NCBI GenBank assembly: GCA_020723325.1 | Contig: DYJD01000010.1 | Span: 1-64,000 of the forward strand | Direction of reading: 5' to 3' | Source of the DNA: Desulfosudis oleivorans | GTDB lineage: Bacteria; Desulfobacterota; Desulfobacteria; Desulfobacterales; SURF-7 | Length of the DNA: 64,000 nucleotides | Shown here: positions 3,736-24,461 of the stretch, piece after piece | Layout of the letters: the number at the start of each line of letters is the position of its first letter | How positions within the stretch are numbered: the stretch's first letter is position 1 | Notes under the pieces: generated by a model | What the model was told of the DNA's origin: nothing | The model's database searches: none | What the model saw: only the letters and a program-made list of their open reading frames with translations | Translations under genes and position numbers: made by a program

Positions 3736-5712
3736 TTAATGAGTTTGGTTTTGAAGCAACTTCAATTCATCCAGTCGTTTTTGAATGCTGAGGTTGTCCG
3801 GGGCATATTTTTCGGCGATTAGATAATTGGAAATCGCGCCTGAAATATCACCTTTGTTGAGCAAGGCTTCTGCTAGATTGGCGTAAAATACGGGCTGGTT
3901 GGGGGATATTTGAATTGCTTGCCGATAATGGGTAATCGCTTCCTCCAGGCGATGCAGAGCCAGGAAAGTATTGCCGATATTGTTATGAATTTCCGGTATA
4001 CCGTTATCTATCCGTAATGCTCTCTGATAGAATTGGAGCGCCTCATCCAATCTTTTTTGCATTTTTAAGATATTGGCGATATTATTGTGGGCATCCGTGA
4101 AGTAAGGATCCAATTGCAGGGCTTTTTCAAAGCATTCACCGGCCCTGTCCAATTTTCCCATTTTTTTATAGGCCACCCCAAGATTATTGTGTGCCAGGGC
4201 CACATTTGGATTGATCCGCAAAGCGATCTGGAGTTGCTCGATTGCCTGTTCAGGCTTGCCGGATTCCGCCAGTATACCTCCAAGTGTTATTCGCGGGGTG
4301 TTATATTGGGGACCGATCTTTACAGCTTCATATACATGTTTAATTCCTTCCGTTTTTTGATCCTTGGCCAACAGTGCCAGACCGAGTAGATGATGCGCCA
4401 CATGATTTTGCCGGGTGACTTTCAATGAATGACCGGCCAAAGATAGATCGTCTTTCCAGAATCCCAATTGGATTCTGGTCTGGAAAGCCATAAATAACAG
4501 CGAGAGTATAGCAAGAGGCAGAAGGATTTGTTGTGGTGAGCGGGTCTTGCTGTAGATCTGATGAAGTCCCCAGGCAATCATGATAAATATGCCTACGGCC
4601 GGCAGATATGTCCAGCGGTCTGCCATGGCCGGCCATAATCCTTGCTGTTTTATACCCAAAACAGGAACGAGAGTGCCCAGGAACCAGCACCAGCCTGTAA
4701 AAAGATATGGTGCCGATCGTATCAAGCCTATGATTGAAGAGGTAATAAGCAGCACAAAGAGCAGCGCGCCCAGAAGTTGCCATACTGGATATGCTTGAGC
4801 CGGGAACGGATAAAAAACCGCCAAATCAAAAGGGAAGAAAATTTTTAGGATATATGCAAAATAAGAATACAGGGCATTTTGAATTCGAAGGGTCAGGGGA
4901 AAGACCTGGGTCGATATGATCTGACCGGCTTTCTCCGCTGAGAGGGTAGCAATATATACCCAGGCGGCTGACAACAAAAATAGGGGTATTTTTTCTTTCA
5001 ACAAAATGGCGATGGAATGAATCAGGGTGGGAGACAGCCCGGCCTTGACCAATCGGGGCGATATATCAGAAACAGAAAATTGAATCCGCTTTAAGGGCCA
5101 GAAATCCATCAACAGGAAAGCGAAAGGCAGGGTCACCAGCATGGGTTTGGCAAGAAGACCCAACAGCATCCCCACGAATACCGGAATGTAGTTTCTTATG
5201 GTAGATCTGCGCGAATAATGGACATAGGCAAGGCAAGAAAGGAACCAAAAGCCGGTGCTGATCAGGTTTTTTCGTTCGGCAATCCATGCCACTGATTCGA
5301 CGTTCAGGGGATGCAGTGCAAAGAGAATGGCTACCATTGCGCTTCTATAAACCGCTCCGGTGGCCTGTTTAAGAAAGAAAAAAAGCAATATGCTGTTGAG
5401 AATGTGATAGATCACATTCATGAGGTGATGAGCGGTCGGCTTCAAGCCGAATAGTTGCACATCCAACATGTGCGACAAGATGCTGAGAGGATGATAGTAA
5501 ACCTTCTCACTCGCAGTGGTAAAGGAAAATGCCGCTTTGATTCCTTCTATTGTGATACCGGATCTTACATGATGGTTTTTAGTGACATAGATATTGTCAT
5601 CCAATTCGAGAAACGGATATGTCGTTACCGGCCAATATGCAGCCAGGGTAGCTGTTATGAGCAAAAGCAAAAGGAGGAGAGTAACCGGCGGCTTATATTT
5701 CATACCCACCAT
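3736..5712 (-). CDS. TMTC-like multi-pass membrane protein with TPR tail (copy 1)
   Basis: 658 residues. About ten membrane segments (1-420) carry the signature of the bacterial TMTC/DUF1736-like family: DDNIYVTKN at the first periplasmic loop, [30 protein letters not shown] and LAKPMLVTLPF. A C-terminal block of tetratricopeptide repeats runs from about 430 to 650. Eukaryotic TMTC proteins with this plan are GT-C-fold O-mannosyltransferases; a glycan-transfer role here is an inference. The ATG overlaps the stop of the upstream GT2 gene by one base (TAATG), indicating translational coupling. It is the last gene of the minus-strand glycan arm. Confidence 0.85.
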   Translation of the reverse strand: MVGMKYKPPVTLLLLLLLITATLAAYWPVTTYPFLELDDNIYVTKNHHVRSGITIEGIKAAFSFTTASEKVYYHPLSILSHMLDVQLFGLKPTAHHLMNVIYHILNSILLFFFLKQATGAVYRSAMVAILFALHPLNVESVAWIAERKNLISTGFWFLSCLAYVHYSRRSTIRNYIPVFVGMLLGLLAKPMLVTLPFAFLLMDFWPLKRIQFSVSDISPRLVKAGLSPTLIHSIAILLKEKIPLFLLSAAWVYIATLSAEKAGQIISTQVFPLTLRIQNALYSYFAYILKIFFPFDLAVFYPFPAQAYPVWQLLGALLFVLLITSSIIGLIRSAPYLFTGWCWFLGTLVPVLGIKQQGLWPAMADRWTYLPAVGIFIMIAWGLHQIYSKTRSPQQILLPLAILSLLFMAFQTRIQLGFWKDDLSLAGHSLKVTRQNHVAHHLLGLALLAKDQKTEGIKHVYEAVKIGPQYNTPRITLGGILAESGKPEQAIEQLQIALRINPNVALAHNNLGVAYKKMGKLDRAGECFEKALQLDPYFTDAHNNIANILKMQKRLDEALQFYQRALRIDNGIPEIHNNIGNTFLALHRLEEAITHYRQAIQISPNQPVFYANLAEALLNKGDISGAISNYLIAEKYAPDNLSIQKRLDELKLLQNQTH

Positions 5713-6455
5713 TAATCAAATAAGTCGTAGCGGGATAATCCGGATTTGGCTAAACGGTACTTGATAGCCGTATCCAGGCATCCGAAACCATACTGAATAC
5801 TGCGAGTCAGATTGATGGAAGATGCTTCGGGAAAATATTTGGTCGGGCAACTGATTTCAGCTATTGAATAGCCGAGCCAAATGATCTGGGCCAGCATTTG
5901 GTTGTCGAACACAAAATCATCTGAATTTTTGGATAGGGGTAGTTGTTCAAGCAAATGTCTGGAAAAGGCCCGATATCCGGTATGGTATTCGGAAAGTTTA
6001 GCCCCGAAGAAAAGATTCTCAATGAAGGTCAGGATCCGATTGGAAATATATTTCCAAACAGGCATACCGCCTTTCAGGGCATATCCGCCAAGAATTCTGG
6101 AACCGAGGACGCAGTGATAAAGGCCGTTGCCGATCATGGAAGCCATGGCCGGTATGAGTTTGGGGGTATATTGATAATCCGGATGAACCATAATGACGAT
6201 ATCGGCCCCTTGCTCTATGGCAATTCGGTAGCAGGACTTCTGATTGCCGCCGTATCCTAGATTCACCGGATGCAGGTGTACAAGGGTCTGGGGGAGATCC
6301 TTGGCAATGTTGACGGTTTGATCCTGGCTTTTGTCGTCCACAATCACCACCAAATCTACAATTTCCTGCGCCATTACTTCATCATAGGTTTGACGCAGTG
6401 TTTTTGCGGCGTTGTATGCCGGCATCACCACAACTACTTTCTGATCTTTGAACAT
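5712..6455 (-). CDS. Family 2 glycosyltransferase (polyprenyl-phosphate sugar synthase-like)
   Basis: 247 residues with a complete GT-A GT2 fold and no membrane tail. It shows [13 protein letters not shown] at the start, IVDDKSQD near 38-45 and the metal/nucleotide site HPDYQY at 91-96, resembling dolichol-phosphate mannose synthase-type enzymes that load a sugar from an NDP donor onto a lipid phosphate. A strong AAGGAG site precedes the ATG. It is sandwiched between two TMTC-like genes, overlapping the upstream one by 22 bases and the downstream one by 1. That fits supplying a lipid-linked sugar donor for the TMTC-like proteins; the coupling is an inference. Confidence 0.88.
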
Positions 6456-8563
6456 CCTGAATCGCTCCTTTCCAATTTCCAGAGCATGTTGCGTTTTTCA
6501 CGGGCATCGGCAAAGTCGGGGCTAATCTCCAGCACCTTTGAATAGTACCGAACGGCCTCATCAATGCAATTCAATTTTGAATACGATACAGCCATATTGT
6601 AATAGGTTTGGGCCTGATTCGGGTTTATTCGCAGCGCGGTATCAAAATACCGGAAGGCCTCATCCACATTCCCGTTTTTAAAAAACATCACGGCAATATT
6701 GTTGTAAGCCTCAATGGTTGAAGGGGCAAGCCGGATGGCCTCTGAATAATATTTAAGGGCGTTATTGAAATCGCTCTTTTTTTCATAGGCAGCGCCCAAA
6801 TTATTATGGAACAAAGGCGAAACAGGGTTATTCCGAATCGCCTCCAAATAATACCGGATGGCCTCATCGGGCTGATTTTTGCGCATATATAGATTGCCCA
6901 GGGAATTAAATGCTTCCGCATCATTCGGTCGGATGGATAAAATTGTATGAAGCTCTTTTTCGCTTTCATCCCATTTCCCAGCCTTGATAAGCAACTGGGA
7001 CAGGTTTAAACGCGCTTCGGCCATATCCGGTTTTTTGGCAAGGACTTTTTGGTAATAAGCCATGGCCTCAGTCGTTTGATTCATTTCGCTGAGAAAAAGT
7101 CCCATGAAAAAGTTCGCCTCAGCAAAATCCGGAGACATGGCAACAGCCCTTGAAAAATACTGAAACGCTTCAATCCGTCTACCCTCTCTCCTGAGGGCAA
7201 CGCCCATATTGTAATAGGCAAGTGTATAGTTGGGCGAAATTTCAATAACACGTTCAAATAAGGATAGGGTGTTTCGCCAATAGCGGGTTTGCAACCAAGT
7301 TCCCATGGTTAGTGAAAGTATCAGAATGATGGTTGCTGAACCGATTATTTTTTTTTGATGGAAGATGCCCTTGGTCCAAGGTGCGAATGTCCAAGCGATC
7401 ATGATGAAAATGCCGATGAGGGGGACATAAACATAGCGGTCGGCCATGGCTTGATGGCCCAATTGGATAATCCCGATGACCGGAACAAGCGTACCTAAAT
7501 ACCATAGCCAGCCGACTGCAAGCCAAGGTCTTTTTTGAAAGCCTTGCAGTATGACAAAGCTAACGGCGGATAGAAAAAGAACTGCCGAAAAAATCGTCCA
7601 CATGGACAGATCTTTGTTCAAAGGGTAGTTTAGAGATAGATCAAAGGGCCAAATGGTTTTTATCAAGTAAGATGAATATGATATCAGTGCATTGGCGATC
7701 CTGAAATGCAAGGGGAGACTATCTGACGGCATCAGGCCGCCGATACCGGGGGCTCCGCCGGTATTTTTGGCCGCAATCATGGTCAGATAACTGGCCACAA
7801 TGGAGATCACCATCAAAGGAAGCTTTTCAAGAATGCAGACTTTGATGGAATTTATGGGCAAAGGTTCTGAGGAAAGGCGGTGCCCGGTTTGTTCTGGTGC
7901 AGTATCCGGCAGGTCCTTATTGTTTTTTGCGTTTTGAAAGTTCAGGCTAATTCGTTTTAGCGGCCAGATATCAAGGAGCAGCAAGGTAAAGGGAAAAGTG
8001 ACCAGCATGGCTTTTGACAACAGGCCGAAAATAAAGAGCGCGGTCATGAGAAGATAAGGGATCATGCCACGGTTGCGGATATATCGAATGTAGACCAGTG
8101 TCGCCAGCAACCAAAAAAAGGTGCTGAGCACATTCCTGCGCTCCGCAATCCAGGCTACCGACTCCACATTCAGGGGGTGAACGGCAAAAAGCGCCGCCAG
8201 AAAAGCGCTGGGCCAAAGAGTCCCAGTCATTTTGTTTACAGTATAGAACAGTAAAAAAATATTTGCGAAATGGAAGATAAGATTGGTCAAGTGATGTTTT
8301 CTGGGATCGAGCCCGAATAGCTCGCAGTCCAGCATATGCGACAAAACCGACAACTGCATGCAATAATAGTCTGGATTGGTAAAAACCTGTCTGATTGCCT
8401 GCCGACTGATACCCCTGTTTATAAGATTGTTTTCAGTGGTAAAGGCCGGATCATCAAAACCGACAAAATCAAAACCCATCACCTGGCCATATGCGGCCAT
8501 GGTGATCGCTGCCAGGCTTACATAAACCCAAACAACAGTGCGGTCTTTGCCGATAGCCGCCAT
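6434..8563 (-). CDS. TMTC-like membrane/TPR protein (copy 2)
   Basis: 709 residues, the longest of four paralogues. Its membrane half has [44 protein letters not shown] and [12 protein letters not shown]. The C-terminal half (about 440-690) holds roughly seven tandem TPR units. Unlike copies 1 and 3 it lacks the His-Pro just before the SHMLD motif and has CMQ there instead, a feature shared with copy 4. The inner-membrane glycosyltransferase-C role is inferred from family architecture. The gene starts 56 bases after the TPR lipoprotein stop, with a modest GGAAG site, and overlaps the following GT2. Confidence 0.85.
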
Positions 8564-8619
8564 TCTTCACATTTCTTCCATCTCGCATCGGTTAGTATAT
8601 TTTTGTTGGATTTGCAGCC

Positions 8620-9690
8620 CTATTTCTCATTTTGTTTTTCTTTGGGCGGCGTGACTAACTTTTGAAATTCTTCCGTGTCACGGATGCTTGCCAGCCTTTG
8701 ATCGGTTTTAATTCTATCCAAATTGCGATACCCTTTTTGAATGGCCTTTTGCAGCCATTCCAAAGCAGCCTTTGTCTCCTTTTTTTGAGCAAAAAGTGTT
8801 GAAACTTGGAACATGATATCCCCGCGTTCAGGCTGGAGATTGGCGGCTTTTTGAGTCAAAGCAAGGGCCTGATCAAGATCTTTTTTCTGTTCATGCAGGG
8901 CCGCCAAATCCAGCAAGGCTTCTAGATAATCAGGCTTCAGCGAGATAGCCTTTTGATATTGCTTAATGGCCGCATCCAACTCGTTTTTTTCAAGATGGAA
9001 ATTCCCCATCTTCCAATTTAAATACGCATTGTCTGGATTTTGTTTTATTTTTTCATTGAGTTGGCTTATTGCAGAATCCATCTGGGCCCGGGCTTTATCT
9101 AATTCCTCCTTGTTTTTAAGCAAGTTTTTTTCTTCGGGTGTAATTTGAAGGGCAGTGTTATAAAACTGATCCGCTTTTGTATATTTCCCTTGTGAAACAT
9201 ATACTGCCGCTATATTGCTGAATACGGTGGCGACTTTTGGATCTTTATTGCCGTATAACTTCAAGCTGATGGATAAAGCATCACGATACAGCCCTTCGGC
9301 TTCATGATTTTTATCCTGCAGTGAATAAATATTGCCTAATAGATTGAGGAGGTCCGCAACCTCAGGGTGCATGGGACCAAAAGCTTTTATTTTTATCCGC
9401 AAAGCTCTTGAAAAGAGCGGTTCTGCTTCGGCAAATTTTTTCTGGATGTAATAGCATCCGGCCACGTTATAAAGGGTCTTGGCGACGTTTGGATGGTCCG
9501 GTTCAAAAGCTTTTTCTGCAACCTCAACGGCTTTTTTGCCAAGCTGTATGGCTTCTTCATATTTGCTTTCCTGATAAAGCGCCGCCACTTGATTGTTCAA
9601 ATCATTCCATTCAATTTTGGGGTCCTTTCCACAGCTCATCATGAGGGGGGTAAGTATTATTACCAGCAGGACGGCGGTGATTTTTTTCAT
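8620..9690 (-). CDS. TPR lipoprotein
   Basis: 356 residues. A lipoprotein signal peptide ends at LMMSC (Cys20), after which the protein should be lipid-anchored. The mature part has kinesin-light-chain-type TPRs (about 30-185, e.g. HPEVADLLNLLGNIYS) followed by classical TPRs (about 210-330, e.g. AYLNWKMGNFHLEKNELDAA). An AAGGAGGAGAGA site directly precedes the ATG. It sits among TMTC-like genes and is probably a scaffold for periplasmic or outer-membrane partners. The 168-base gap upstream of it may hold a separate promoter. Confidence 0.82.
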   Translation of the reverse strand: MKKITAVLLVIILTPLMMSCGKDPKIEWNDLNNQVAALYQESKYEEAIQLGKKAVEVAEKAFEPDHPNVAKTLYNVAGCYYIQKKFAEAEPLFSRALRIKIKAFGPMHPEVADLLNLLGNIYSLQDKNHEAEGLYRDALSISLKLYGNKDPKVATVFSNIAAVYVSQGKYTKADQFYNTALQITPEEKNLLKNKEELDKARAQMDSAISQLNEKIKQNPDNAYLNWKMGNFHLEKNELDAAIKQYQKAISLKPDYLEALLDLAALHEQKKDLDQALALTQKAANLQPERGDIMFQVSTLFAQKKETKAALEWLQKAIQKGYRNLDRIKTDQRLASIRDTEEFQKLVTPPKEKQNEK

Positions 9691-9858
9691 TCTCTCCTCC
9701 TTGTGTAAACATATTAATGACCCGACTTGGCAGTCGCCCTTGTTTTAATTATGAAAAAATCATAAGTTTATGTCTTTGGTTTTCGTCTTGCCCGATTTGC
9801 CAAGACAAATCAGCCGGCGGACTTTGAGCAGCATCGACTTATAATATCAATCAATTAT

Positions 9859-11565
9859 TTATTCAACCATTTTTTTATTTTTTAGCTGTTGGATTCGCCT
9901 GGAAACAGCGACCAGCGTTTTAGGATCATATTGTATTGCCTGGTTATAGTGGTACAATGCTTTTTCAGACATATGTTGTTTCTCATAAGCCATGGCTGTA
10001 TTAAAATGCGCCTTGGCATGAAAAGGGTTAATGGTCAGGGCTTTTCTAAAATAGTCCATGGCGATCTCGAAATTCCCAAGCTCTGATTGCACCACACCCA
10101 TATTGATGTGGGCGTCTATAAAATTAGGCATGGATTGGATTGCATGCCGGAAAGCTTCAGCGGCTGAAGTAAGTCTCCCTTCTCGAAAAAGTGCAATTCC
10201 AAGATTGTTGAACGGTTTGCCATTATCGGGTTTTAGGTATATAGCCATTGAAAAATGCGCGATGGCTTCTTTCGTGCGATTTTGATCAAGCTTGGCAAGA
10301 CCGATGAGATTCTGGATTACACCGTTGTTCCCATCCACCCTCAATGCATGCTCATACAGATCGATGCTGCTGCGCCAATGTCGGATTTGAACCCATGTCA
10401 AGGGTAGGAGACAGGCGAACAAAACGAGGCCAAGGGCCGCCGGAACCATCCTGCTGACGGAACAGTTTTTTAGTCGCAGATCGATTTCCCAAATAATGCT
10501 GATAAATAATCCAATAAATGGGATATAAGTATATCGATCAGCCATGGATTGGGCTCCGATTTGGACGAGACCGATAACCGGTATTAGGGTGCCGAGATAC
10601 CATAACCATCCCACAATCAACCAGGGGCTGAGGCGATGCCTGATAATGCCGATGACGCTCGTACTGACAATCGCTAAAGCAGCCAGTATAGGCTTCCACA
10701 TTGGAATTACTTGTGGAAATGGATAAAAAACAGCCAGGTCAAACGGCCAAATCATTTTTAACAAGTAAAGACCGTACGAAACAAGGGCATTAAATATTCT
10801 GGATTCGAGGGGGATTAAATCCACCGGTGCCACCGCACCTTCAATCTTTTGCACCTGAAAGGTAATGATGCAAAATAAAACAACAATCAGAAAGAATGGC
10901 GTTTTTTCAAGGACAAGGTTGAGAGAGGATTTCGATTTAAAATCCATCCGCATAAAAGGCCAAAAATCAAAAAGTATCAAAACAAAGGGTAAAGTAACCA
11001 ACATGGGCTTGGCCATCAGGCCGATAGTGAAAAATACTAGTGACAGGAAATAGCTTAAGTAATTTTGCTTTTCAACGAAACGGGCATATAGGAGCATGGT
11101 GATCAACCAGAAAAAAGTGCTGAGAACATCCTTGCGTTCAGCCACCCATGCCACGGATTCCACATGGGCAGGGTGGAGGGCAAAGAGGGCGGCGACCAAT
11201 ACGCTGGGCAGGCCATGCCCTGTAGCGCGGTTCAACAGACCAAAGAGCAACAATGTGTTCAACAGGTGGAAAAACAAATTGGTTAAATGGTGCCAGCCGG
11301 GATTCAACCCAAAGATCTGCACATCAAGCATATGGGAAAGCATGGTGACTGGATGCCAATTGGCGCCCACTAGAGATGAAAAAGCCCAGGTAAAATTTTT
11401 AAAAGTTAAGCCCTTGGTGACATACTCATTTTCGTAGACGTATAGGTTGTCGTCATAATTAATGAACTGATGCTCGATGACTTGTCCGTATGCTGCCAGC
11501 GTTATTAGCACAAGGCTGACAGAGATCCATGTTTTGGGGCTTTGAAGTGGAGATACGATATTCAT
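9859..11565 (-). CDS. TMTC-like membrane/TPR protein (copy 3)
   Basis: 568 residues. It carries the full family signature: NYDDNLYVYENEYV, ANWHPVTMLSHMLD, ALHPAHVESVAWVAERKD and LMAKPMLVTLPF, then about four TPRs (400-560, e.g. AHINMGVVQSELGNFEIAM). It belongs with copy 1 to the HP-containing subtype. No clear ribosome binding site precedes the ATG, which lies 28 bases after the stop of copy 4, so coupling to upstream translation is possible. Predicted inner-membrane GT-C-type protein with TPRs facing a soluble partner; the substrate is unknown. Confidence 0.85.
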   Translation of the reverse strand: MNIVSPLQSPKTWISVSLVLITLAAYGQVIEHQFINYDDNLYVYENEYVTKGLTFKNFTWAFSSLVGANWHPVTMLSHMLDVQIFGLNPGWHHLTNLFFHLLNTLLLFGLLNRATGHGLPSVLVAALFALHPAHVESVAWVAERKDVLSTFFWLITMLLYARFVEKQNYLSYFLSLVFFTIGLMAKPMLVTLPFVLILFDFWPFMRMDFKSKSSLNLVLEKTPFFLIVVLFCIITFQVQKIEGAVAPVDLIPLESRIFNALVSYGLYLLKMIWPFDLAVFYPFPQVIPMWKPILAALAIVSTSVIGIIRHRLSPWLIVGWLWYLGTLIPVIGLVQIGAQSMADRYTYIPFIGLFISIIWEIDLRLKNCSVSRMVPAALGLVLFACLLPLTWVQIRHWRSSIDLYEHALRVDGNNGVIQNLIGLAKLDQNRTKEAIAHFSMAIYLKPDNGKPFNNLGIALFREGRLTSAAEAFRHAIQSMPNFIDAHINMGVVQSELGNFEIAMDYFRKALTINPFHAKAHFNTAMAYEKQHMSEKALYHYNQAIQYDPKTLVAVSRRIQQLKNKKMVE

Positions 11566-11593
11566 AAATATTTGGCTTTTGTGCTATCATACA

Positions 11594-13306
11594 TTAAGGA
11601 GACTCTTTCGACTTATTTGCCAAAAGAATATTTAAATTATGTCGTGCATCCTGATAGTCTGGAGCTATCCGCAAAGCTTGCTGCAAATGCCAAATGGCTT
11701 TATCGATTTGCTTTTGGCTGTATAATGCAATTCCAAGATTGTTGTGGGCCTCGGCATAGTTTGGATTGATTTGCAAGGCGGTTAAATAGCGAGCAATGGC
11801 CTCATCATTTGCGCCTTTAGCACTGAGCACGTTTCCCAAATTGTTATAGGCTTCGGCAAAATTGGGATGAAGCCGGATGGACTTATGGATATGTGGCAGA
11901 GCCTCATCAAGCCTGCCGTTTTCAGCTAACGCCATACCGAGATTGTTGTGGGCCACGGCATAATCCGGAGTTATGCGGACCGTGTATTCAAACAATGTCA
12001 AACTGTTTTGCCAATGTCGTACTTGTGTCCAAGTAGCGATGGATAGGAGAATGCAAGCAATTATTGCAAATGCGGCTACAATTTTCAATTTTACTTCACT
12101 TCTTGTCCAAATAGCTTCCAGCCCCCAAACCATTATGATTAGGATACCGATCATTGGAACATAAATGTACCGGTCTGCCATGGCCTGGCCGCCAAGTTGG
12201 ACAAAACCGATAACAGGAACAAGGGTCCCCATGAACCAGAACCAACCCACACTTATAAAAGGCGCTGTACGTATATAACGTAAACTCACTATCATTGTTA
12301 TCAGGAGCAGCAATACGGAAACAATCACTTGCCAAATAAATAATGATTGAGGATATGGGTAGTAGACCGACAGTTGAAACGGCCACAATATTTTTAATAT
12401 GTATTTTATATATGCAATGGCGGCATTGGCCATGCGAATATCGAATGGGATGGCTTCAAATGAAACAAGACCGCCGATTCCTTTAACACCGCCTTTATTC
12501 TGGGCGGAAATAAGTGTCAAATAACAAGCCAAGGCGGAAATGATCATAAGGGGTATTTTTTCCCCGAGCACGCGGAGAGGAAAATATAACCGATATGGCA
12601 ATTTTTTTGAACGATCGGAGTGATTGATAACTTCGCGTTCATTCAACTGTATTCTTTTCAAGGGCCAGAAGTCCAATAAAAGCAGTAAGAATGGAAAGGT
12701 AACCAGCATGGATTTGGCCATCAATCCCAGGATGAATAAAAAGAATACAGACAAATAATTGAGCAAACCGCGTTGTTGCGTATATCGCCAATAGGCTGAT
12801 AGTGCTGCAAACCAGAAAAACGTGCTGAGCACATTACGCCGTTCAGCTATCCAGGCCACGGATTCGATATTGAGCGGATGAATTGCAAACAGGACGGCGA
12901 TGATGGCACTTTTATAAATGGCGCCGGTCATACGATTCAAAAGATGAAACAGCAGCAAGGTATTCAATAAGTGCAGTATAAGATTGGAAAGGTGATGTTT
13001 GCCGGCGCTCAATCCATAAAGCTGACAATCCAGCATATGGGAAAGAAAGGAAATTTGCATGCAAAAATAATCCGGGTTGGAAAATATTTCCTGGACACCT
13101 TGCCAGGTGAGACCTTTTTGTACCAAATGATTTTGGGTTGTAAAAGTAGGGTCGTCGTAGTTTAAAAAATCAAAATGAATAATTTGTCCATACAGTAAAA
13201 GAACCAGGCAGATAAGGATAGCAACAATGGCCGGGATTGATCTGCAATGGTAGTCGATCGAATTATTGGGAAGATGGCCGAGGGGCATGATTTTATCAAT
13301 AGTCAT
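11594..13306 (-). CDS. TMTC-like membrane/TPR protein (copy 4)
   Basis: 570 residues. The signature is [47 protein letters not shown] and LMAKSMLVTFPF, and about four TPRs occupy 440-560. It is the closest relative of copy 2: both have PDY[YF]CMQ in place of the His-Pro segment and both contain a short charged insertion after WPLKRI. It starts 22 bases after the neighbouring large membrane protein, within an AT-rich spacer without an obvious ribosome binding site. Confidence 0.85.
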   Translation of the reverse strand: MTIDKIMPLGHLPNNSIDYHCRSIPAIVAILICLVLLLYGQIIHFDFLNYDDPTFTTQNHLVQKGLTWQGVQEIFSNPDYFCMQISFLSHMLDCQLYGLSAGKHHLSNLILHLLNTLLLFHLLNRMTGAIYKSAIIAVLFAIHPLNIESVAWIAERRNVLSTFFWFAALSAYWRYTQQRGLLNYLSVFFLFILGLMAKSMLVTFPFLLLLLDFWPLKRIQLNEREVINHSDRSKKLPYRLYFPLRVLGEKIPLMIISALACYLTLISAQNKGGVKGIGGLVSFEAIPFDIRMANAAIAYIKYILKILWPFQLSVYYPYPQSLFIWQVIVSVLLLLITMIVSLRYIRTAPFISVGWFWFMGTLVPVIGFVQLGGQAMADRYIYVPMIGILIIMVWGLEAIWTRSEVKLKIVAAFAIIACILLSIATWTQVRHWQNSLTLFEYTVRITPDYAVAHNNLGMALAENGRLDEALPHIHKSIRLHPNFAEAYNNLGNVLSAKGANDEAIARYLTALQINPNYAEAHNNLGIALYSQKQIDKAIWHLQQALRIAPDYQDARHNLNILLANKSKESP

Positions 13307-13328: not shown

Positions 13329-15119
13329 TTATTTTATAACAAGATGGTAAAAGACGAATCCGATTCCTTGCTGGTTTCTATTATCAACAAATGGCTGAAA
13401 ATGAGCTATTTTATCCGTAACAATATATTTATTAAAATAATTTTCAATCAGGCGGAGTCGAGTGACATCGGTCTGATCGCGGAATAATTGGAACCAGATA
13501 ACCCGCTGATTATCAACGGCCCATTGGATGAAAGGATTTTTTTCTGAAATTCCAAAAGATTTTAATATCTGAAAATATTGTGGTGAGTTGACTTGCCAGC
13601 CAAAGGGCAAAATCTTGAAGCTAGTAAAGTCCTTTCTTTCCTTGAGTGGATGGACGGTTTCAATCATCAAATTTTGCAAGGGATTCAGCGATACCAGGAG
13701 TGTGTTCTCTTTATCAATGCCTTTTAGATCTGTATGATTGAATTGGCTTTGTACATATTGTTTAATTGTATAGGATGTCTCCATATCTTTCAACAGGTAC
13801 TTGCCGATTGAATAGGCCAAGCAGTAGGTTATTACTATGGCCGGGATCATGAGGAAAATGATCCATTTTTTTAAAAACGGTGAAGCATTTTTAAATTTGG
13901 TCGGCTTTTCATTATTGAATAAAAGAAAAGCTAAGCCGATCAGGTACGTATATAGCGGTAGAAAAATTCTAGGTTCAAAGCGATAGTAAATGAAAAAGAG
14001 AATTCCGAATACAACCATTGAAATGGATAAACGCTTTCTCCATTTCATTGAATTTCTTGATCCCAAGGGATGGAGGGTCGTAAACAGAAGAATGAGCGAT
14101 AATGTCCCGAGACTGAAATTTGTATATTGGCTACTTTTAATATAAGCATCTTTTATTCGTTTGCCGGCATGGTCGATTAGGGAGTTGTTTTGGAGGGGTG
14201 AATTCGCTTTTAAAAATTGAGATAATTTTTCCGAATTAAAACTGTTCAGGTCGTATAAAAACCAGTAATCCCTGAAAAGTAGATAATCTTCATAGGACCA
14301 ACCGACTTTTTTTAACGCAGGAGGAGTGGATTGTTCATAAAAATCGCCTGCTTCAGTATCGTGGAATTTTTTTCTTAGCATGCTATATTCATTATAAAAT
14401 TTATTGTCCTGAGCATCCAAATAAAAAACGAAAAATGGAACCAGGAGCAAAAGGCAGACAAGGATATGAATGAAGGACTGATATGGCCTTGCTATGCTTT
14501 TCTGATAAAAAAGCAAAACAGGAAAAGAAAAAACCAAAAAGTATGATACCAGCTCCCATCTTAATAGAAATCCCATGAACAATGCTATTTGAAGAAAAAG
14601 CTGAAATGCTTTTGAATTAAAAGGCGTGAAAGCAGAAGATATATACCACTGCAAGAAGCTTAAAAAAACAGCAAATAGTAACAACAGAGATGCGAAGGTC
14701 AGACCGGGAAATGCATATGCGCGAAAGAAAACGATGAAAAAAAAAGGTCCGATAAAAAATAATATGATCGGCTTTTCAGCTCGAAGAAGTACATTTATTA
14801 ACAAGGCCACAGCTAGAAATGTACAAAAATATATCAGAAGGCCGTACCATGGTGCAGAAGGAAACTTCTGATATAGATAATAGAGGGAGTGGCTGGTAAT
14901 CGGATTGAGAATAAAACTCACAGGCGTTGAAGAATATCCGGACAGTTCGGTAACTATAGCAAAATCATCATTGGTTTCATACCGAACGTGAAATACGACC
15001 AAGACAAATAACAGTAAAACTGCTGATATGCCAAATGCAAGCAGAAGTGCTCCTTTCCCACTGTTATTCAGATCGGCTGCCGAAGAGGTTTTGAGATCAG
15101 CTTTCATCCGGAACTTCAT
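13329..15119 (-). CDS. Large multi-pass membrane protein, family A (paralogue of 18469-20274)
   Basis: 596 residues, about ten predicted membrane helices, function not recognised. Diagnostic stretches shared with the paralogue are RYETNDDFAIVTELSGY after the first helix (an acidic NDD loop reminiscent of GT-C enzymes), LNPITS, and near the end ETVHPLKE, GWQVNSPQYF and WFQLFRDQ. The start overlaps the end of gtrA by 23 bases; a second ATG four codons in is also possible. The context (GtrA, GT2, TMTC-like genes) suggests a polymerase or glycosyltransferase of the surface glycan, but this is unproven. Confidence 0.75.
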   Translation of the reverse strand: MKFRMKADLKTSSAADLNNSGKGALLLAFGISAVLLLFVLVVFHVRYETNDDFAIVTELSGYSSTPVSFILNPITSHSLYYLYQKFPSAPWYGLLIYFCTFLAVALLINVLLRAEKPIILFFIGPFFFIVFFRAYAFPGLTFASLLLLFAVFLSFLQWYISSAFTPFNSKAFQLFLQIALFMGFLLRWELVSYFLVFSFPVLLFYQKSIARPYQSFIHILVCLLLLVPFFVFYLDAQDNKFYNEYSMLRKKFHDTEAGDFYEQSTPPALKKVGWSYEDYLLFRDYWFLYDLNSFNSEKLSQFLKANSPLQNNSLIDHAGKRIKDAYIKSSQYTNFSLGTLSLILLFTTLHPLGSRNSMKWRKRLSISMVVFGILFFIYYRFEPRIFLPLYTYLIGLAFLLFNNEKPTKFKNASPFLKKWIIFLMIPAIVITYCLAYSIGKYLLKDMETSYTIKQYVQSQFNHTDLKGIDKENTLLVSLNPLQNLMIETVHPLKERKDFTSFKILPFGWQVNSPQYFQILKSFGISEKNPFIQWAVDNQRVIWFQLFRDQTDVTRLRLIENYFNKYIVTDKIAHFQPFVDNRNQQGIGFVFYHLVIK

Positions 15120-15516
15120 CTCGTTTCAGTGACCAGAATTTCATTCCGAAAAAATTGATTAGAACAATAATCGGCAAAATGAATATTTGTACCACCAGCG
15201 GATCCCATTCTGTTTTTTCTGTTAGCAGTTTTAGGGCGAAAAAGTTCAGGAAAAAAGAAGCAATGTAAACGATGAAATACTTGGTAAGACGGGTGCGAAA
15301 AACTAATTGCTTTTCAGGTTTGAATACCCAAATAAAATTAATTATATAAGTGAATAAAACACCGGCCAGCCAGGAAATGGAATAAGCTGTCAAATAATGG
15401 GAATTCAATAATTTTAAAAATATAAAATAAACGGCCAAGGTAAAAAACAGATTCAAGAGGCCGACGATTAAATATTTTTCAAATTGTATAAAACCGGTAT
15501 GGTATGTCGATCTCAT
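15097..15516 (-). CDS. GtrA-family membrane protein
   Basis: About 139 residues with four membrane helices of the GtrA family, which is thought to help flip or present polyprenyl-phosphate-linked sugars for glycan modification. Seen: FEKYLIVGLLNLFFTLAVYF near the start, a typical FTYIINFIWVF third segment and a C-terminal FFGMKFWSL. The frame is open further upstream, but the ATG at 15516 (MRSTYHTGF) is preferred because it lies 7 bases after the GT2 stop and gives the normal family length. GtrA next to a GT2 with two C-terminal helices (GtrB-like) is a classical pair. Confidence 0.85.
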   Translation of the reverse strand: MRSTYHTGFIQFEKYLIVGLLNLFFTLAVYFIFLKLLNSHYLTAYSISWLAGVLFTYIINFIWVFKPEKQLVFRTRLTKYFIVYIASFFLNFFALKLLTEKTEWDPLVVQIFILPIIVLINFFGMKFWSLKRDEVPDES

Positions 15517-15523
15517 CTGCCGT

Positions 15524-16468
15524 TCATTCCAATATTCGGTCAATGATATATGGCTGTCTACCCCTGACTTGATCCAAAGTCCGCCAAAGGTATTCGCCAA
15601 TAATACCGAGCATCAGCATTTGAATTCCTGATAATACCAATATGGCAATCATGATGGGCGCCCAACCTTTAACCGGTAAATTGACAAAAAGCCAGGATAT
15701 GAAGATGAACAGGGCATAACCGAATCCGATTAAAGCAGTAATGGCGCCGATAACTGACATCATGCGGATCGGGAAATATGAATAGCTCAAAACCCCATCG
15801 ATGAGATATTTTATTTTTTTTCCAAAGGTCCAACGGGACTTTCCGATCTCACGCCTTCTCCTGACGTAGGGGATAAATTTAATTGGAAAACCGGTCCATA
15901 AAATTTGGCCTTGAAAAAAGGCGTTGGCTTCCCGGCTAGCCAAGATGAGGTTTTTTACCTGTTCGCTTAACAGCACGAAATCGAAGCCCTTTTGCGGCAT
16001 ATTGGGAAAACTCAAGCGTTTCATGATGGCATAGAAAAGTTGGGATGTTAGCCGCCGAAAGAAGGATTCGTCACGGGCTTCCCGGGTACAGATCACAATT
16101 TCACAGTTCTCATGAAAATGATAGTGGATCATCTCATTGATTAATTCAGGCGGATCCTGCAAATCTGCCGAAATGTTGATAATACATTTCCCGCTGGCAT
16201 GTTTGAAACCGGCCATGATTGCCTGGAGTTGGCCGAAATTGCGTGATAGCTTAATGACCTTTATAAGATCCGGATTGCTTTGCCACAAGCCGAGGAGTTC
16301 CTGGAAAGAGTTGTCACCTGAACCGTCATCGATGAAAATGATTTCACAACTCCGATTTGTATTTTGGGCGATGACTTCCTGCTGGAGGATATCAACTGTT
16401 TTGGTGAGACTGCCTTCATTATAGTAAACCGGAATGATGATTGAATAATCAATGGATGGTTTTATCAT
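15524..16468 (-). CDS. GtrB/ArnC-like family 2 glycosyltransferase
   Basis: 314 residues. A GT-A domain with IIPVYYNEGSL, FIDDGSGD (46-53), LSRNFGQLQAI and ADLQDPPELI (101-110) is followed by two C-terminal membrane helices (about 235-300). This is the architecture of GtrB and ArnC enzymes, which make polyprenyl-phosphate-linked sugars. It lies 4 bases downstream of the DegT aminotransferase, with an AAGGG site, and immediately upstream of gtrA, so the three genes form one unit. The sugar transferred cannot be read from the sequence. Confidence 0.9.
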   Translation of the reverse strand: MIKPSIDYSIIIPVYYNEGSLTKTVDILQQEVIAQNTNRSCEIIFIDDGSGDNSFQELLGLWQSNPDLIKVIKLSRNFGQLQAIMAGFKHASGKCIINISADLQDPPELINEMIHYHFHENCEIVICTREARDESFFRRLTSQLFYAIMKRLSFPNMPQKGFDFVLLSEQVKNLILASREANAFFQGQILWTGFPIKFIPYVRRRREIGKSRWTFGKKIKYLIDGVLSYSYFPIRMMSVIGAITALIGFGYALFIFISWLFVNLPVKGWAPIMIAILVLSGIQMLMLGIIGEYLWRTLDQVRGRQPYIIDRILE

Positions 16469-16472
16469 TTGA

Positions 16473-17696
16473 TCATACCCTTAGTCGCAATTCACCAGCG
16501 TTGCGGATGATATCTTGCAACACACCGCTGATTTTAAGAATATGCTCTTCGGAGATGGATAAACCAGTTGGGAGTGAAATTACTCGTTTCAGCAATTTTT
16601 CTGTTTCCGGCAGCAAAAGCCCCGCATGGGGGAAATAGGATCGATACGGTTCCATTCGATGGCAACCTGGGTAAAAATAGCGCCTGGCGATGATATTTTC
16701 CCCATTAAGAACGGTCACAATCTGGTCTCGTGTAATCCCAAGTTTTTCTTCATCGACTTCGATGATGATGTATTGATAATTCATCCGTTCATTTGCATTA
16801 TAACGGATCAACGAGATTCCAGGTATATTCCCAAGTAATTCGCCGTACAAAGTGTAATTGCGCTTATTGGCGGCAATAATTTGATCCAGATACTCAATGG
16901 AGGTCAAACCCATGGCTGCCGAAATTTCGGGCATTTTCCCGTTGGTGCCGATATAGATGACATTGTCGTATCCCGCAAACCCGAAATTTTTCATCAAACG
17001 GATTTTTCCCGCCAATTTTTCGTTATTGGTAACCACTGCGCCGCCCTCAAACGTGTTGATGAATTTGGTGGCATGAAAACTGTATATTTCGGCATCTCCG
17101 AAGTTACCGATCATCTTTCCCTTGTATGTGCAGCCGAAGGCATGGGCAGCATCGAATATCAGTTTCAACCCATGTTGTTGGGCAATATTACTCAATGAGT
17201 CGATATCACAGGGGCGGCCCCAAAGATGGACGCCGATGATACCGGTTGTCCGGGGCGTAATCATTTTTTCAATTTTTTTACAATCCAAATTATGGGTAGT
17301 GATATCGATATCGCAGAAGATCGGCGTGATTCCTTGCCATTGAAGAGAATGGGCCGTAGCAATAAATGTGGCCGATGGGATGATTACTTCACCGGTCAGT
17401 TCAAGAGCACGTATGGCAATTTCAAGTGCAATAGTGCCATTACACATGGCAATGCAATGTTTTGCCCCGGTCAATTCGGAAATTTTTCCTTCAAATTCCT
17501 GAACAAGAGGACCATTATTGGTCAGCCAACGTCTAGTTAAAAGATCATGAATACGGTCAATGAGGTGCTCTTTATTGACAATATTAGGGCGGCCCACGTG
17601 AAGCTTATCAGGAAAAACAGGTGCACCCCCTAGAATAGCAAAATCATGAATATTGTTTTTTATCATAAGTTCATCATCCGAAACGATTTGTTTCAT
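16473..17696 (-). CDS. DegT/DnrJ/EryC1/StrS-family sugar aminotransferase
   Basis: 407-residue PLP-dependent sugar aminotransferase. The Schiff-base Lys is K211 in SFHATKFINTFEGGA, the ring-facing Asp is D182 in FDAAHAFG, and HLWGRPCDI and NGKMPEISAAMG are typical of the family. Such enzymes convert a nucleotide-linked keto-sugar into an amino sugar for surface glycans. The N-terminal GGAPVFPDKLHVGRPN stretch resembles VioA-like members, but the position aminated cannot be decided. It is the first gene of the minus-strand arm and diverges from the hexapeptide acyltransferase across a 228-base AT-rich gap. A second ATG at 17666 is an alternative start. Confidence 0.9.
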   Translation of the reverse strand: MKQIVSDDELMIKNNIHDFAILGGAPVFPDKLHVGRPNIVNKEHLIDRIHDLLTRRWLTNNGPLVQEFEGKISELTGAKHCIAMCNGTIALEIAIRALELTGEVIIPSATFIATAHSLQWQGITPIFCDIDITTHNLDCKKIEKMITPRTTGIIGVHLWGRPCDIDSLSNIAQQHGLKLIFDAAHAFGCTYKGKMIGNFGDAEIYSFHATKFINTFEGGAVVTNNEKLAGKIRLMKNFGFAGYDNVIYIGTNGKMPEISAAMGLTSIEYLDQIIAANKRNYTLYGELLGNIPGISLIRYNANERMNYQYIIIEVDEEKLGITRDQIVTVLNGENIIARRYFYPGCHRMEPYRSYFPHAGLLLPETEKLLKRVISLPTGLSISEEHILKISGVLQDIIRNAGELRLRV

Positions 17697-17924: not shown

Positions 17925-18479
17925 ATGAGCGGCTATAACATTCCTTTTGTTAAAATTTTCGATTCAACCAAAATCATTGGAATTGAGAATATTCAATTCG
18001 GAAAATATATCATCATCGATGATTTTGTTTTTATCAGCGCTAAAAAGCAAATGAAACTGGGTGATTACGTCCATATTGCAAGCCATTCATCGATTACAGG
18101 CATGGAGCGGTTTGCGATGGAGGAATTTTCCGGCTTGAGCCAAGGCTGTCGAATCTTTACAGGATCGGAGGACTTTATTAATGGCGGCTTTGGAAATCCG
18201 ACCATTGCAACCAGTTTTCGAAACTTAAAAATCGGTCCGATTAAAATTGAAAGATTCGCATGCATAGGGGCCAATAGTGTGATACTGCCGGGAGTGACTG
18301 TAGGAGAAGGCGTAACCGTCGGTGCAAACTCGGTGGTCAGCAGGAATTTGGAGCCTTGGGGAGTGTATCTCGGCAATACTAAAATCAGAACAAGAAATAA
18401 AGAAGAAGTCCTTAAGACCTACGACAGGTTTATTAAAACCCCCCCCGCGGAAAGAATCGGAAACCTATTCATTCGCTGA
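17925..18479 (+). CDS. Left-handed beta-helix (hexapeptide repeat) acyltransferase
   Basis: 184 residues with hexapeptide repeats, e.g. IGANSVILPGVTVGEGVTVG near 122-141, and ending in a short helical tail. These trimeric enzymes use acetyl-CoA (or another acyl-CoA) to acetylate sugars. An upstream GGTGAA site supports the ATG. It diverges from the DegT aminotransferase, a pairing that often makes an N-acetylated amino sugar, although O-acetylation is equally possible. Its 3' end overlaps the convergent membrane-protein gene by 11 bases. Confidence 0.85.
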   Translation: MSGYNIPFVKIFDSTKIIGIENIQFGKYIIIDDFVFISAKKQMKLGDYVHIASHSSITGMERFAMEEFSGLSQGCRIFTGSEDFINGGFGNPTIATSFRNLKIGPIKIERFACIGANSVILPGVTVGEGVTVGANSVVSRNLEPWGVYLGNTKIRTRNKEEVLKTYDRFIKTPPAERIGNLFIR

Positions 18480-20274
18480 ATTCGGCAGCAGCTTGATTAT
18501 TGCTCAGATTTGAGGCCGCAAAAAAGACCAACCCAAGGCCTTTTTCATTTCGAAAATCATTGGCGATTTCTAGTTTTGTCTCTTTTCCCGGAGTAATATG
18601 TTTTTTAAAATATGTTTCAATTAGATTCGCTAAATATGCGTCCCTTTGATCTTCAATATATTGAAACCAGAGCGCTTTTTTGTTGTTGACGGTCCAGTGC
18701 AGCAATTCATTTCCATCCTGCATGCCATAATGTTTCAGGAATCTGAAATAGCGTGGTGAATTGATTTGCCAGCCGCCAGGAAGGATATTGATGGCAGGAA
18801 AATCTGAAAATTCTTTGAGCGGATGAACTGTCTCCTGCAATAAATTGTTATTTGGATTTAATGGGATGAGCAGCAGATCATCCGGATGAGTATGCAGGTT
18901 TTTTACTTGAAGCAAACAAGTCATAATTATTTTTTTTTCCATATTCTTGGCCCGCAAATATTCTATTAGAGCTTTGCTTTTTATCCAGGTCAGCCAGCAT
19001 AAGGACAATATGATGATCATTGTGAATATATTTTGCGACCAATATTTAATGCGGCTCAGGTTCACATTTTTAGCTGAGGAGGATTGATACAGCATCAGGA
19101 ATGTAGCCCCTAGGATATAGGCATAGAGAGGCAAATAAACCCTTGGCACAAAACGATGATACATTAGGAAGAGAGCGATGGCGCTGATGATGCAGAGGGA
19201 GATTAATATTTTGGCAATGTTCAAATTGGGCTTGCTTAACAATGATTTCGGCTGAAACATAAAAATAGCAATAATTGTTATAAATAGGATCAAACTTATC
19301 GATTGGTTTCCTTTGAGATGAATATAAGCCCTACTTGCAATCTGTCGGATCATCGTGCGCTTTTCCAGCGGGTCATTTTCTTGTAAAAAAACCGATAGGG
19401 TCTGGGTGTTAAAGCGCTTCTGGTCGTGTAAAAACCAGTAATTTCTGAAAAGGATAAAATCGTTCCAATCCCAACCGGCTTTTTGGATGGCCTTTAGGGT
19501 AGTGCCTTTATAATACTCACCTTTATCGCTGTCATGGAACCTGGAGCGCAATCGGTTATATTCAGCGAATGAAAAATGCTTCTCATCGTTTGCGTGAAAT
19601 GTAAAATAAGCGGATAAAATCAAGACCGCAATTAATCCAGCAGCAAAAGGCCAGAACCTTTTATAAAACGTTCCCCGGGCAAATAGAAAGACAGGTACTG
19701 AAAGAATGGATAAATAGAGCACAAGTTGCCATCGCAAGGAAAAGGAAATGAACAAGCAGATGGTTAAAAAGGTAATATATAAGTACTTGCATTCGAATGG
19801 GCATTTGTCAGTAACAGCCCAATCCAGCAAACACAAAAAGACGCCGAAAAGCAAGAGTAAAGAGCTGGACGTAAAACTAGCAAAGGCGAAACAGTGGAAA
19901 AAAATAATGAAAAGGCATGGACCACAAAGGAGCAAGGGCAATCCTCTATTCCGTCTAAAAAAAACACTTGTCGTCATTGAAAACCCCAAATAGGCGGCTA
20001 AATAAATCCAAAGACCATACCAGGGGATGTTCGGAAAAATCTTATAAAGAGCATGCAAACATTTGCTGGTTAAGGGGTTTAAAAAAAAGCAATCCGTCCC
20101 TGGCAAAAATCCGTTCAATTCCGATATCATGGCAAAGTCGTCATTTGATTCATATCGAAGCGGAAGAGACAGAAACATGGTGTATAACAGCACAGCCATC
20201 AATAACAGGGCTACCGGCAGTGAACAATCCCTATGAAATGAATTTTTTTTGATTTGTAATCGCTGGAGCGCCAA
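18469..20274 (-). CDS. Large multi-pass membrane protein, family A (paralogue of 13329-15119)
   Basis: 601 residues with about ten predicted membrane helices. It aligns end to end with the 596-residue protein at 13.3 kb: RYESNDDFAMISELNGF, LNPLTSKCL, PWYGLWIY, then ETVHPLKE, GWQINSPRYF and WFQYIEDQRDA at the C-terminus. I do not know the family by name. It lies in antisense orientation inside the plus-strand arm and has its own transcription start. Conserved periplasmic acidic residues and the glycan context suggest a GT-C-like enzyme or polymerase, but that is inference. Confidence 0.75.
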   Translation of the reverse strand: MALQRLQIKKNSFHRDCSLPVALLLMAVLLYTMFLSLPLRYESNDDFAMISELNGFLPGTDCFFLNPLTSKCLHALYKIFPNIPWYGLWIYLAAYLGFSMTTSVFFRRNRGLPLLLCGPCLFIIFFHCFAFASFTSSSLLLLFGVFLCLLDWAVTDKCPFECKYLYITFLTICLFISFSLRWQLVLYLSILSVPVFLFARGTFYKRFWPFAAGLIAVLILSAYFTFHANDEKHFSFAEYNRLRSRFHDSDKGEYYKGTTLKAIQKAGWDWNDFILFRNYWFLHDQKRFNTQTLSVFLQENDPLEKRTMIRQIASRAYIHLKGNQSISLILFITIIAIFMFQPKSLLSKPNLNIAKILISLCIISAIALFLMYHRFVPRVYLPLYAYILGATFLMLYQSSSAKNVNLSRIKYWSQNIFTMIIILSLCWLTWIKSKALIEYLRAKNMEKKIIMTCLLQVKNLHTHPDDLLLIPLNPNNNLLQETVHPLKEFSDFPAINILPGGWQINSPRYFRFLKHYGMQDGNELLHWTVNNKKALWFQYIEDQRDAYLANLIETYFKKHITPGKETKLEIANDFRNEKGLGLVFFAASNLSNNQAAAEFSE

Positions 20275-23644: not shown

Positions 23645-24459
23645 CTAAAAATGAAAAAATTAAGAAAATTATAGATTGGAATCAGGCCTATACGATTCAG
23701 AATAATACAATTTGTTTTATTCCGGCAGAAAAAACTTCCCATCAAACAGCCGGAACCGGACTTTTGGGAACCATCCAGAACATGCTAAAAAAGCATGGCG
23801 GGTTATATTATACTCTTTTGAATATTTTCGGACCGGTACTATTATCAACCGATTATCATAGCACAGCCAAAAACTGTCTTGAAAAATATAATGACGAACA
23901 TGTGATAATTAATCTAGGCAGCGGTCCTTCGTATTTTTATGGAAGAAAGGATATCATCAATATCGATGTATTTTCTTTGGATGAAGTCGATATTGTAGCA
24001 GATGCCGCAAAATTACCCATTGCAGATGAATCGGTTGATTTTATCATTACTATTGCCATGCTGGAGCACGTAATAGATCCTTATCAAGTTGTTCAGGAAA
24101 TGCATCGAATACTTAAACCTCATGGAGAAATTTTTACTTATATTCCTTTTATCCAACCCTATCATGCTGCCCCGTATGACTACTCTCGTTGGAACCATCA
24201 AGGTATAAGAAGATTGTTTGCTGATTTTGCCGACCATCGCATTTTCATAGGCAGTGGCCCAACTTCCGGAATGTTGTATATTTTAGAAGAATGGTTATCC
24301 ATTTTATTGTCTTTCGGCATTAAACCACTGCATGACTGTTGGTTTTTGCTGTTAATGTTATTGCTGTTTCCAATAAAATATTTGGACTTAATATTAAATA
24401 AATTCGAGTTTGCCGCAAATGCTGCAAGCGGTTTTGGAATTGTGGCTAGAAAAGGTTGA
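23641..24459 (+). CDS. SAM-dependent methyltransferase (class I)
   Basis: About 272 residues. The Rossmann SAM-binding core is visible as IINLGSGPSYFYGRKDIINID (motif I region) and ADAAKLPIADESVDFIITIAMLEHV, typical of methyltransferase type 11 enzymes in glycan loci. Hydrophobic stretches near the C-terminus suggest membrane association. The ATG at 23641 overlaps the stop of wecE as ATGA, so the longer open frame starting upstream is unlikely to be used. The target (sugar, lipid or glycan end) is not determinable. Confidence 0.85.
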   Translation: MTKNEKIKKIIDWNQAYTIQNNTICFIPAEKTSHQTAGTGLLGTIQNMLKKHGGLYYTLLNIFGPVLLSTDYHSTAKNCLEKYNDEHVIINLGSGPSYFYGRKDIINIDVFSLDEVDIVADAAKLPIADESVDFIITIAMLEHVIDPYQVVQEMHRILKPHGEIFTYIPFIQPYHAAPYDYSRWNHQGIRRLFADFADHRIFIGSGPTSGMLYILEEWLSILLSFGIKPLHDCWFLLLMLLLFPIKYLDLILNKFEFAANAASGFGIVARKG

Positions 24460-24461
24460 AA

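Follow-up and report, generated by a model that had tools for sequence, protein, structure and literature searches.

What do bacteria use proteins for that join a membrane domain like that of the animal TMTC O-mannosyltransferases to tetratricopeptide repeats (TPRs), and which molecules would such proteins act on? The question is raised by a stretch of 64,000 nucleotides from Desulfosudis oleivorans (contig DYJD01000010.1, positions 1 to 64,000; here referred to as the window), which carries four of them in one gene cluster at 3736-13306. We read this cluster as an extracytoplasmic protein-glycosylation cassette, of a family whose likeliest main client in this order would be the major type IV pilin, and we give this reading about an even chance. 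It is built on the computed fold of two proteins, the predicted topology of one, gene linkage and conservation.

The cluster consists of six open reading frames (ORFs) on the minus strand. Four encode TMTC-like proteins, here named protein 1 (3736-5712, 658 residues), protein 2 (6434-8563, 709 residues), protein 3 (9859-11565, 568 residues) and protein 4 (11594-13306, 570 residues). Between the first two lies the gene of a family 2 glycosyltransferase (GT2), here named GT2a (5712-6455, 247 residues), and between proteins 2 and 3 that of a TPR lipoprotein (8620-9690, 356 residues), whose N-terminus resembles a lipoprotein signal with a lipobox ending in MSC, as judged by eye. The four paralogues, the overlapping GT2 and the lipoprotein were all found where an earlier reading of this DNA (the original prediction) had placed them. 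GT2a starts 22 nucleotides within the gene of protein 2, and its TAA stop shares one base with the ATG of protein 1 (TAATG). Read along the minus strand, the whole run comprises genes for a DegT-like aminotransferase, a GtrB/ArnC-type GT2, a GtrA-type protein, a membrane protein of 596 residues, protein 4, protein 3, the TPR lipoprotein, protein 2, GT2a and protein 1. The widest gap between genes is 168 bp, and the six ORFs at 3736-13306 form one operon-like run. TPRs scored far above the Pfam cut-offs in all four TMTC-like proteins and in the lipoprotein.

The GT-C domains of the other three proteins share 39, 41 and 42% identity with that of protein 1, and those of proteins 2 and 4 share 49% with each other. 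A profile of these four domains (4 rows) found 8 strong homologous genes in this 7.2-Mb genome, the four of the window included, and 4 weaker ones, so that the genome holds at least 12 TMTC-like genes. Homologues were present in 24 of 39 relatives (profile search, E value 1e-50) and, when 118 genomes were sampled across the phylum, in 19 (1e-100, this genome included). A species-wide collection yielded at least 577 relatives among 591 candidate stretches, from which 80 named loci were kept for the locus counts. Two or more TMTC-like ORFs (E value 1e-20) were present in 35 of these loci and four to eight, some fragmentary, in 13. Since such clusters are common, four TMTC-like genes in a row are not remarkable but ordinary for the family, and the new element lies in their pilin and GT2a context. 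A multi-step machine, as originally proposed from the repeated arrangement, is only suggested by the copy number, the two enzyme classes and the two altered-pocket proteins described below.

To answer what kind of enzyme these proteins may be, their fold was modelled. The model of the whole protein 3, computed from a 99-row alignment, reached a predicted local distance difference score (pLDDT) of 94.1 and a predicted template modelling score (pTM) of 0.92. Its residues 5-405 matched chain 8agb_A of the yeast oligosaccharyltransferase with Z 20.4 (325 residues, 4.5 A) and residues 4-411 matched chain 6p25_B of Pmt1-Pmt2 with Z 19.6 (345 residues, 4.5 A), whilst residues 412-568 resembled TPR superhelices. 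Residues 1-420 of protein 4, modelled alone (pLDDT 88.7, pTM 0.89), matched the oligosaccharyltransferase 8agc_A with Z 17.9 (328 residues, 5.1 A), 6p25_B with Z 17.7, Pmt4 (9i5k_A) with Z 17.5 and ArnT (5f15) with Z 15.4. For this domain Z was 8 or more with 53 of 991 chains, and all 50 matches listed were GT-C-fold proteins. Four of the 50 were GPI-transamidase subunit U, which we take to have the GT-C fold, yet to be no transferase. As modelled, the two window proteins have the GT-C fold of Stt3, Pmt and ArnT (Z 15-20), and the original prediction of a GT-C/PMT fold was thus borne out.

These fold statements were made with VIA-align, and Foldseek was not relied on. With Foldseek the best 50 matches of the whole protein 3 model were all TPR proteins, and for the GT-C domain nothing passed E 0.001, although the list was headed by GT-C enzymes. 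By sequence, GT-C profiles found none of the solved structures (E up to 1 and 10), and the best 60 matches of a full-length profile were all TPR proteins. Pfam PMT_2 was matched by 51 of 72 GT-C domains at E 0.01. A human TMTC structure was not among the matches listed in the structure comparisons, which is no evidence of its absence.

In the model of protein 3 we set the borders of 11 transmembrane segments, a number that fits the scheme for human TMTCs in the accessible part of a published account (PMC7801869). The short cytoplasmic loops hold 7 lysines and arginines in 45 residues and the periplasmic loops 6 in 128. This distribution places the TPR domain in the periplasm, as predicted from the topology of this one model and as proposed originally.

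Are these proteins TMTCs in the strict sense? Animal TMTC1-4, which are cadherin O-mannosyltransferases, likewise combine an N-terminal GT-C domain with an Asp-Asp (DD) motif in the first outer loop, 11 transmembrane segments and C-terminal TPRs outside the cytoplasm, as far as the available text describes them (PMC7801869). Among 151 aligned relatives the first aspartate of DD was conserved in all and the second in 149, and the arginine of motif M3 and the lysine of motif M4 were invariant. In contrast to the animal enzymes, the window class lacks PF08409 (DUF1736), which was matched by 0 of 72 members including the four window proteins (E 0.01). Nowhere in this genome did PF08409 exceed its cut-off, the best score being 22.3 bits on contig C78. 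The metal-binding glutamate of M4 was present in 0 of the 151 relatives, its place being taken by proline (141), serine (7) or alanine (3). Thus M4 reads KP, KS or KA instead of KE, and M2 reads HP or, in two window proteins, MQ. The pattern KE(T/Q)xxT of M4 was not found in the window class; the C-terminal TPRs were. Because PF08409 is absent and M4 altered, strict TMTC membership was dropped, and this part of the original prediction was not supported. Nor need the sugar transferred be O-mannose, as it is in animals.

A second, distant bacterial class keeps KE in 29 of 38 members and is in this respect nearer to the animal motifs. One gene of this KE class lies directly behind pilA of this genome, and the two classes at times stand side by side (L158, L160, L164, L184). 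TPRs exceeded the Pfam cut-off in 9 of 10 scanned proteins of the distant class, that of L222 being without them; the scan left out the pilA loci L214, L215 and L218. By their motifs, there are two bacterial TMTC-like classes, one with animal-like motifs and one to which the window belongs.

Two window proteins depart from their own class. The sugar-pocket motif reads YHPLS in protein 1 and WHPVT in protein 3; in proteins 2 (YCMQLS) and 4 (FCMQIS) its W-H-P is replaced by C-M-Q. The pocket proline was kept in 149 of 151 aligned relatives, and a pattern scan of the position (n=170) gave 168 proline versus 2 glutamine. Proteins 2 and 4, the only exceptions in the alignment, are sisters with a branch support of 100 in a tree of 226 proteins. 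This conservation and the sister placement would suit inactive or scaffold paralogues that have lost the W-H-P. However, DD, the arginine of M3, the lysine of M4 and the ADRY motif are kept in both, the modelled fold of protein 4 is intact, and an altered sugar preference explains C-M-Q equally well, so that we consider loss of activity possible but doubtful.

If the TMTC-like proteins are transferases, GT2a may supply their donor. GT2a carries the GT2 catalytic domain (PF00535, 73.5 bits, cut-off 23.3), and no NCBIfam model exceeded its cut-off. Its sole solved relative by sequence at E 0.001 was the dolichol-phosphate-mannose synthase 5mlz, a weak match covering about half of GT2a (E 3.5e-7, 33.4 bits, residues 2-133). 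GT2a is therefore presumed from its sequence to be a Dpm1-like polyprenyl-phosphate-sugar synthase. The genome holds no second copy of its kind (next best 31% identity). Among the 39 relatives GT2a was found in 21 at 1e-50; 20 matches covered the full length and were 70-78% identical. Of the 39, 17 had both GT2a and TMTC-like genes, 7 the latter only, 4 GT2a only and 11 neither (Fisher p 0.01, kinship not corrected for). In one of the GT2a-only genomes (G015) it lies directly behind a distant TMTC-like gene (L201). Counting this genome, 18 genomes have both, and in 11 of them GT2a and a TMTC-like gene are no more than 5 kb apart. In 8 of the 80 named loci GT2a scored above 400 bits.

A specific candidate client emerged from the genes around the homologues. 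For whole-genome counts we used this genome and the 24 relatives that carry TMTC-like genes at the 1e-50 cut, 25 in all. Major-type pilins were those matching a PilA profile of 13 rows with an E value of at most 3e-20, of which there were 45, up to 2.7e-20; this cut-off and the 5 kb radius were chosen after the lists had been seen. A major-type pilin was present in 21 of the 25 genomes, and in 16 of these 21, this genome included, it lay within 5 kb of a TMTC-like gene (9 at 1 kb, 16 at 10 kb). Random placing would give 0.19 genomes, an expectation that treats genomes as independent and, through their kinship, overstates the significance. A single inherited event does not account for the linkage, since the state of pilin adjacency switches at least 32 times across the tree of 226 proteins.

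The distant class extends this association, as in 9 further genomes one of its genes was mapped within 5 kb of pilA. Counted in this way, 32 genomes have a major-type pilin, and in 25 of them a TMTC-like gene is no farther than 5 kb away, a figure with looser TMTC scores (E 1e-8, 1e-4), read off gene maps and without a computed expectation. In two of the other seven genomes the pilins stand close to the end of a contig or right at it (G008, G027), in two there is another large membrane protein nearby that by eye looks GT-C-like (G012, G026), and the remaining three have neither feature (G001, G021 and G017, the last with a GtrB-like gene beside pilA). A further strong pilin, on G019:C147 (L225), had no TMTC-like gene nearby. 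In a direct scan of the 80 named loci, PilA-type pilins turned up in 13, at most 2.4 kb away from a TMTC-like gene, with L083 left out for its different pilin-like protein; 0.31 pilins would be expected from the density in relatives, where a different detector was used. In Desulfonema magnum 4be13 (L039), for example, 2.2 kb separate the pilin from the first of four TMTC-like genes.

A frequent gene order was NtrC-type regulator, pilA, TMTC-like gene(s) and GT2a (L156, L174, L176, L178, L179), with L174 lacking the regulator in its stretch and L156 having GT2a ahead of the TMTC-like gene. For loci with a Dpm1-like synthase, a GT-C protein with outward TPRs and a pilin gene, a pilin-glycosylation cassette is the simplest account. 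The originally proposed link to protein glycosylation thus gained in pilin and the Dpm1-like GT2 two conserved neighbours.

Two other groups of filament proteins were rejected as clients. Flagellin, another filament protein often glycosylated, had no TMTC-like gene as near as 5 kb in any of 12 genomes. Minor pilins were dropped likewise, with 0 of 72 weaker pilin-like matches near TMTC-like genes among the matches listed.

An MSHA-like pilus operon of this genome, recognised by eye, ends in a pilin followed by a convergent distant TMTC-like gene (L140, G000:C110:121000-140000), the same association with a second pilus type. This pilin was not counted, its distant TMTC-like gene being below the 1e-50 cut. 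A VKOR-like membrane protein of 388-420 residues recurs by eye beside pilA (L138, L213, L216, L221), hinting at disulfide formation in the pilins of those loci.

Several points besides the kinship of the genomes weigh against our reading. The window class does not retain the residues that have been proposed as metal ligands in human TMTCs. No pilin was found in the window by pattern scan or profile scan. The pilA of this genome lies elsewhere, on contig C18. Its surroundings include an NtrC-type gene, two TMTC-like genes and, about 1.3 kb behind, a different Dpm1-like GT2 of 312 residues with 29% identity to GT2a. These TMTC-like genes therefore need not depend on the window, and the idea that the window supplies their GT2 was dropped. 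Within the available DNA, many loci being short, 182 of 226 TMTC-like proteins had no pilin within 5 kb, and 11 of 29 major-type pilins in the TMTC-carrying genomes lay farther than 5 kb from a TMTC-like gene. The phylum-wide draw, with distances taken by hand and the distant class not sought, gave a strong pilin within 5 kb in 4 of 17 TMTC-carrying genomes, a weak pilin in one more and a pilin at 6.5 kb in another. At 1e-50, GT2a was absent from 7 of 24 TMTC-carrying relatives and present in 4 of 15 without TMTC-like genes. From the unlinked genes on both sides and the weak phylum-wide link it follows that pilin is not the only client. As the window is without a pilin and the pilA locus has TMTC-like genes and a GT2 of its own, we infer the action on pilin one step less firmly for the window than for pilA-linked loci.

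These observations could also be explained by general O-glycosylation, in which each TMTC-like enzyme has its own set of exported proteins, pilin being one client in some lineages and the four window enzymes having other clients. Of the at least 12 TMTC-like genes of this genome only two lie by the major pilin and one beside the MSHA-like pilin, many TMTC-like loci have no pilin, and in animals client classes are divided among three enzyme families, according to the accessible part of PMC11292533. Yet pilin was the only exported-protein candidate recognised (by eye) among the neighbour families present in at least three loci, and we regard such a division of clients as quite improbable. The neighbour families, named by eye, come from a clustering of all genes up to three places away from a TMTC-like gene, both in the window and in the 80 named loci. 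The recurrent ones included a methyltransferase-GT2 fusion in 14 loci, TPR proteins in 11 (mostly TMTC-like pieces), type IV pilin in 10, and GT2a or a close GT2 in 9, the window included and the GT2 of L073 being a weak relative of GT2a (35 bits). Methyltransferases, other large membrane proteins, NtrC-type regulators and single enzymes occurred in 3-5 loci each. The window has its own methyltransferase-GT2 fusion (24456-25913, plus strand, 485 residues), with homologues that recur beside TMTC-like genes elsewhere.

The genes upstream in the run bring in a further alternative. Next to protein 4 follow, all on the minus strand, the membrane protein of 596 residues (13329-15119), which has no family match, a GtrA/DPMS membrane domain protein (15097-15600, 167 residues; PF04138, 76.8 bits, cut-off 26.1), the GtrB/ArnC-type GT2 (15524-16468, 314 residues), a second presumed polyprenyl-phosphate-sugar synthase, and the first gene of the run (16473-17696, 407 residues), which we take to be a DegT-like aminotransferase. 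Beyond the run, the island is rich in sugar-modifying genes to about 30 kb, partly judged by eye, and also holds acyl-, methyl- and aminotransferases, a content that would suit lipopolysaccharide decoration as well and to that extent counts against our reading. Gtr systems add single sugars from polyprenyl phosphate, and ArnT, which has the same fold as the GT-C domain of protein 4, is a lipid A enzyme. The TMTC-like proteins could thus, with GtrA, GtrB and the 596-residue protein, decorate lipopolysaccharide or exopolysaccharide with single sugars, with polyprenyl phosphate as the donor and the TPR domain docking polysaccharide machinery. The GtrA and GtrB/ArnC-type genes in the same run and the sugar-gene-rich island speak for such a role, and relatives too carry GtrB-like genes, of 77-119 bits, in four of their mapped loci (L166, L186, L196, L209). 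In the 80 named loci, however, there was one GtrB-like match above 100 bits, six were below 30, and at 1e-5 the search yielded nothing related to GtrA. Pilin and GT2a do recur in these loci, unlike GtrA and GtrB, and pilin linkage is seen in the relatives. We therefore consider surface-polysaccharide decoration rather unlikely.

Two components were not retained as parts of a conserved machine. GtrA and GtrB were not supported as such in the 80 named loci and the mapped loci, and the TPR lipoprotein was rejected as a conserved partner, a relative being a clear neighbour in a single mapped case (L159, 170 bits).

How would a protein-glycosylation cassette work? GT-C superfamily enzymes draw their sugars from polyprenyl-linked donors. 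GT2a, and perhaps GtrB too, would load a single sugar onto polyprenyl phosphate at the cytoplasmic face of the membrane, and the lipid-sugar would be flipped by the GtrA-type or another protein. In the periplasm the TMTC-like GT-C enzymes would move the sugar onto exported proteins, each gripped by the C-terminal TPR superhelix during the transfer. The window may be a pilin-less expansion of this cassette, with its client pilin encoded elsewhere or with other exported proteins as clients. We infer the donor, the flipping, the acceptor and the action of the window enzymes on pilin.

A membrane glycosyltransferase gene at a pilin gene is known from TfpO, TfpW and PglL, and the TMTC-like homologues in relatives resemble these systems, as far as the accessible texts describe them. 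TfpW is a GT-C enzyme adding arabinofuranose (available part of PMC11841053). In A. baylyi, pglL beside the pilin-like comP encodes its enzyme, as a mutant demonstrated (excerpt of PMC3643930), so that among these precedents the argument from neighbourhood has been confirmed for PglL. What sets the TMTC-like proteins apart from all three is their TPRs, their tandem occurrence and the Dpm1-like GT2 that often lies with them; the copy in the window, besides, stands without an adjacent pilin. For cable bacteria, a paper of 2023 describes a pilA cluster that is conserved and contains TPR proteins along with enzymes that modify sugars; in the accessible part of that paper the TPR proteins of Ca. 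Electrothrix are read as protein-protein interaction proteins, and the cluster is likened to ours by its description (PMC10580974).

Essentially full-length prokaryotic TMTC homologues, one of them deltaproteobacterial, were published in 2021 without a function, as far as the available text goes (PMC7801869). The literature found agrees with the original prediction in assigning the bacterial versions no known function, and the linkage of pilA, TMTC-like gene and GT2a offers these homologues a specific candidate client. Our literature search, which left many subscription papers and preprints outside it, found no paper joining TMTC and pilin. Going further, we tentatively suggest, as a proposal more likely wrong than right, that the bacterial TMTC-like proteins are one more widespread family of enzymes that glycosylate type IV pilins, with a TPR clamp built in for the substrate and a dedicated Dpm1-like synthase, and that they share ancestry with the animal cadherin enzymes. 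The window cassette would then have left pilA, multiplied and gained the CMQ-pocket pair, which would add a second sugar in trans. Protein 3 grouped with the TMTC-like protein near this genome's pilA at a support of only 31, which was too weak and was not used.

Some further arrangements were observed. Another cluster of this genome, set among acyltransferase-like genes, has three TMTC-like genes in which both classes are represented, and no pilin within the stretch (L137, G000:C78:143000-162000). An ORF of 1165 residues at L088:8156-11650 scored 946 bits, about twice the usual TMTC score, and apparently joins two TMTC-like units in one protein; it adjoins two pilins. The 596-residue protein of the run has a paralogue of 601 residues at 18469-20274, and each lies near a GtrB-type GT2. 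Neither gave a Pfam or NCBIfam match over the cut-off, and they are possibly candidates for a new GT-C family. Farther along the window, a VTT-domain membrane protein is fused to a pyridine nucleotide-disulfide oxidoreductase (46621-48921), and the ORF at 41578-44109 unites E1 alpha-type and beta-type (transketolase-like) dehydrogenase parts in a single chain with a further N-terminal region.

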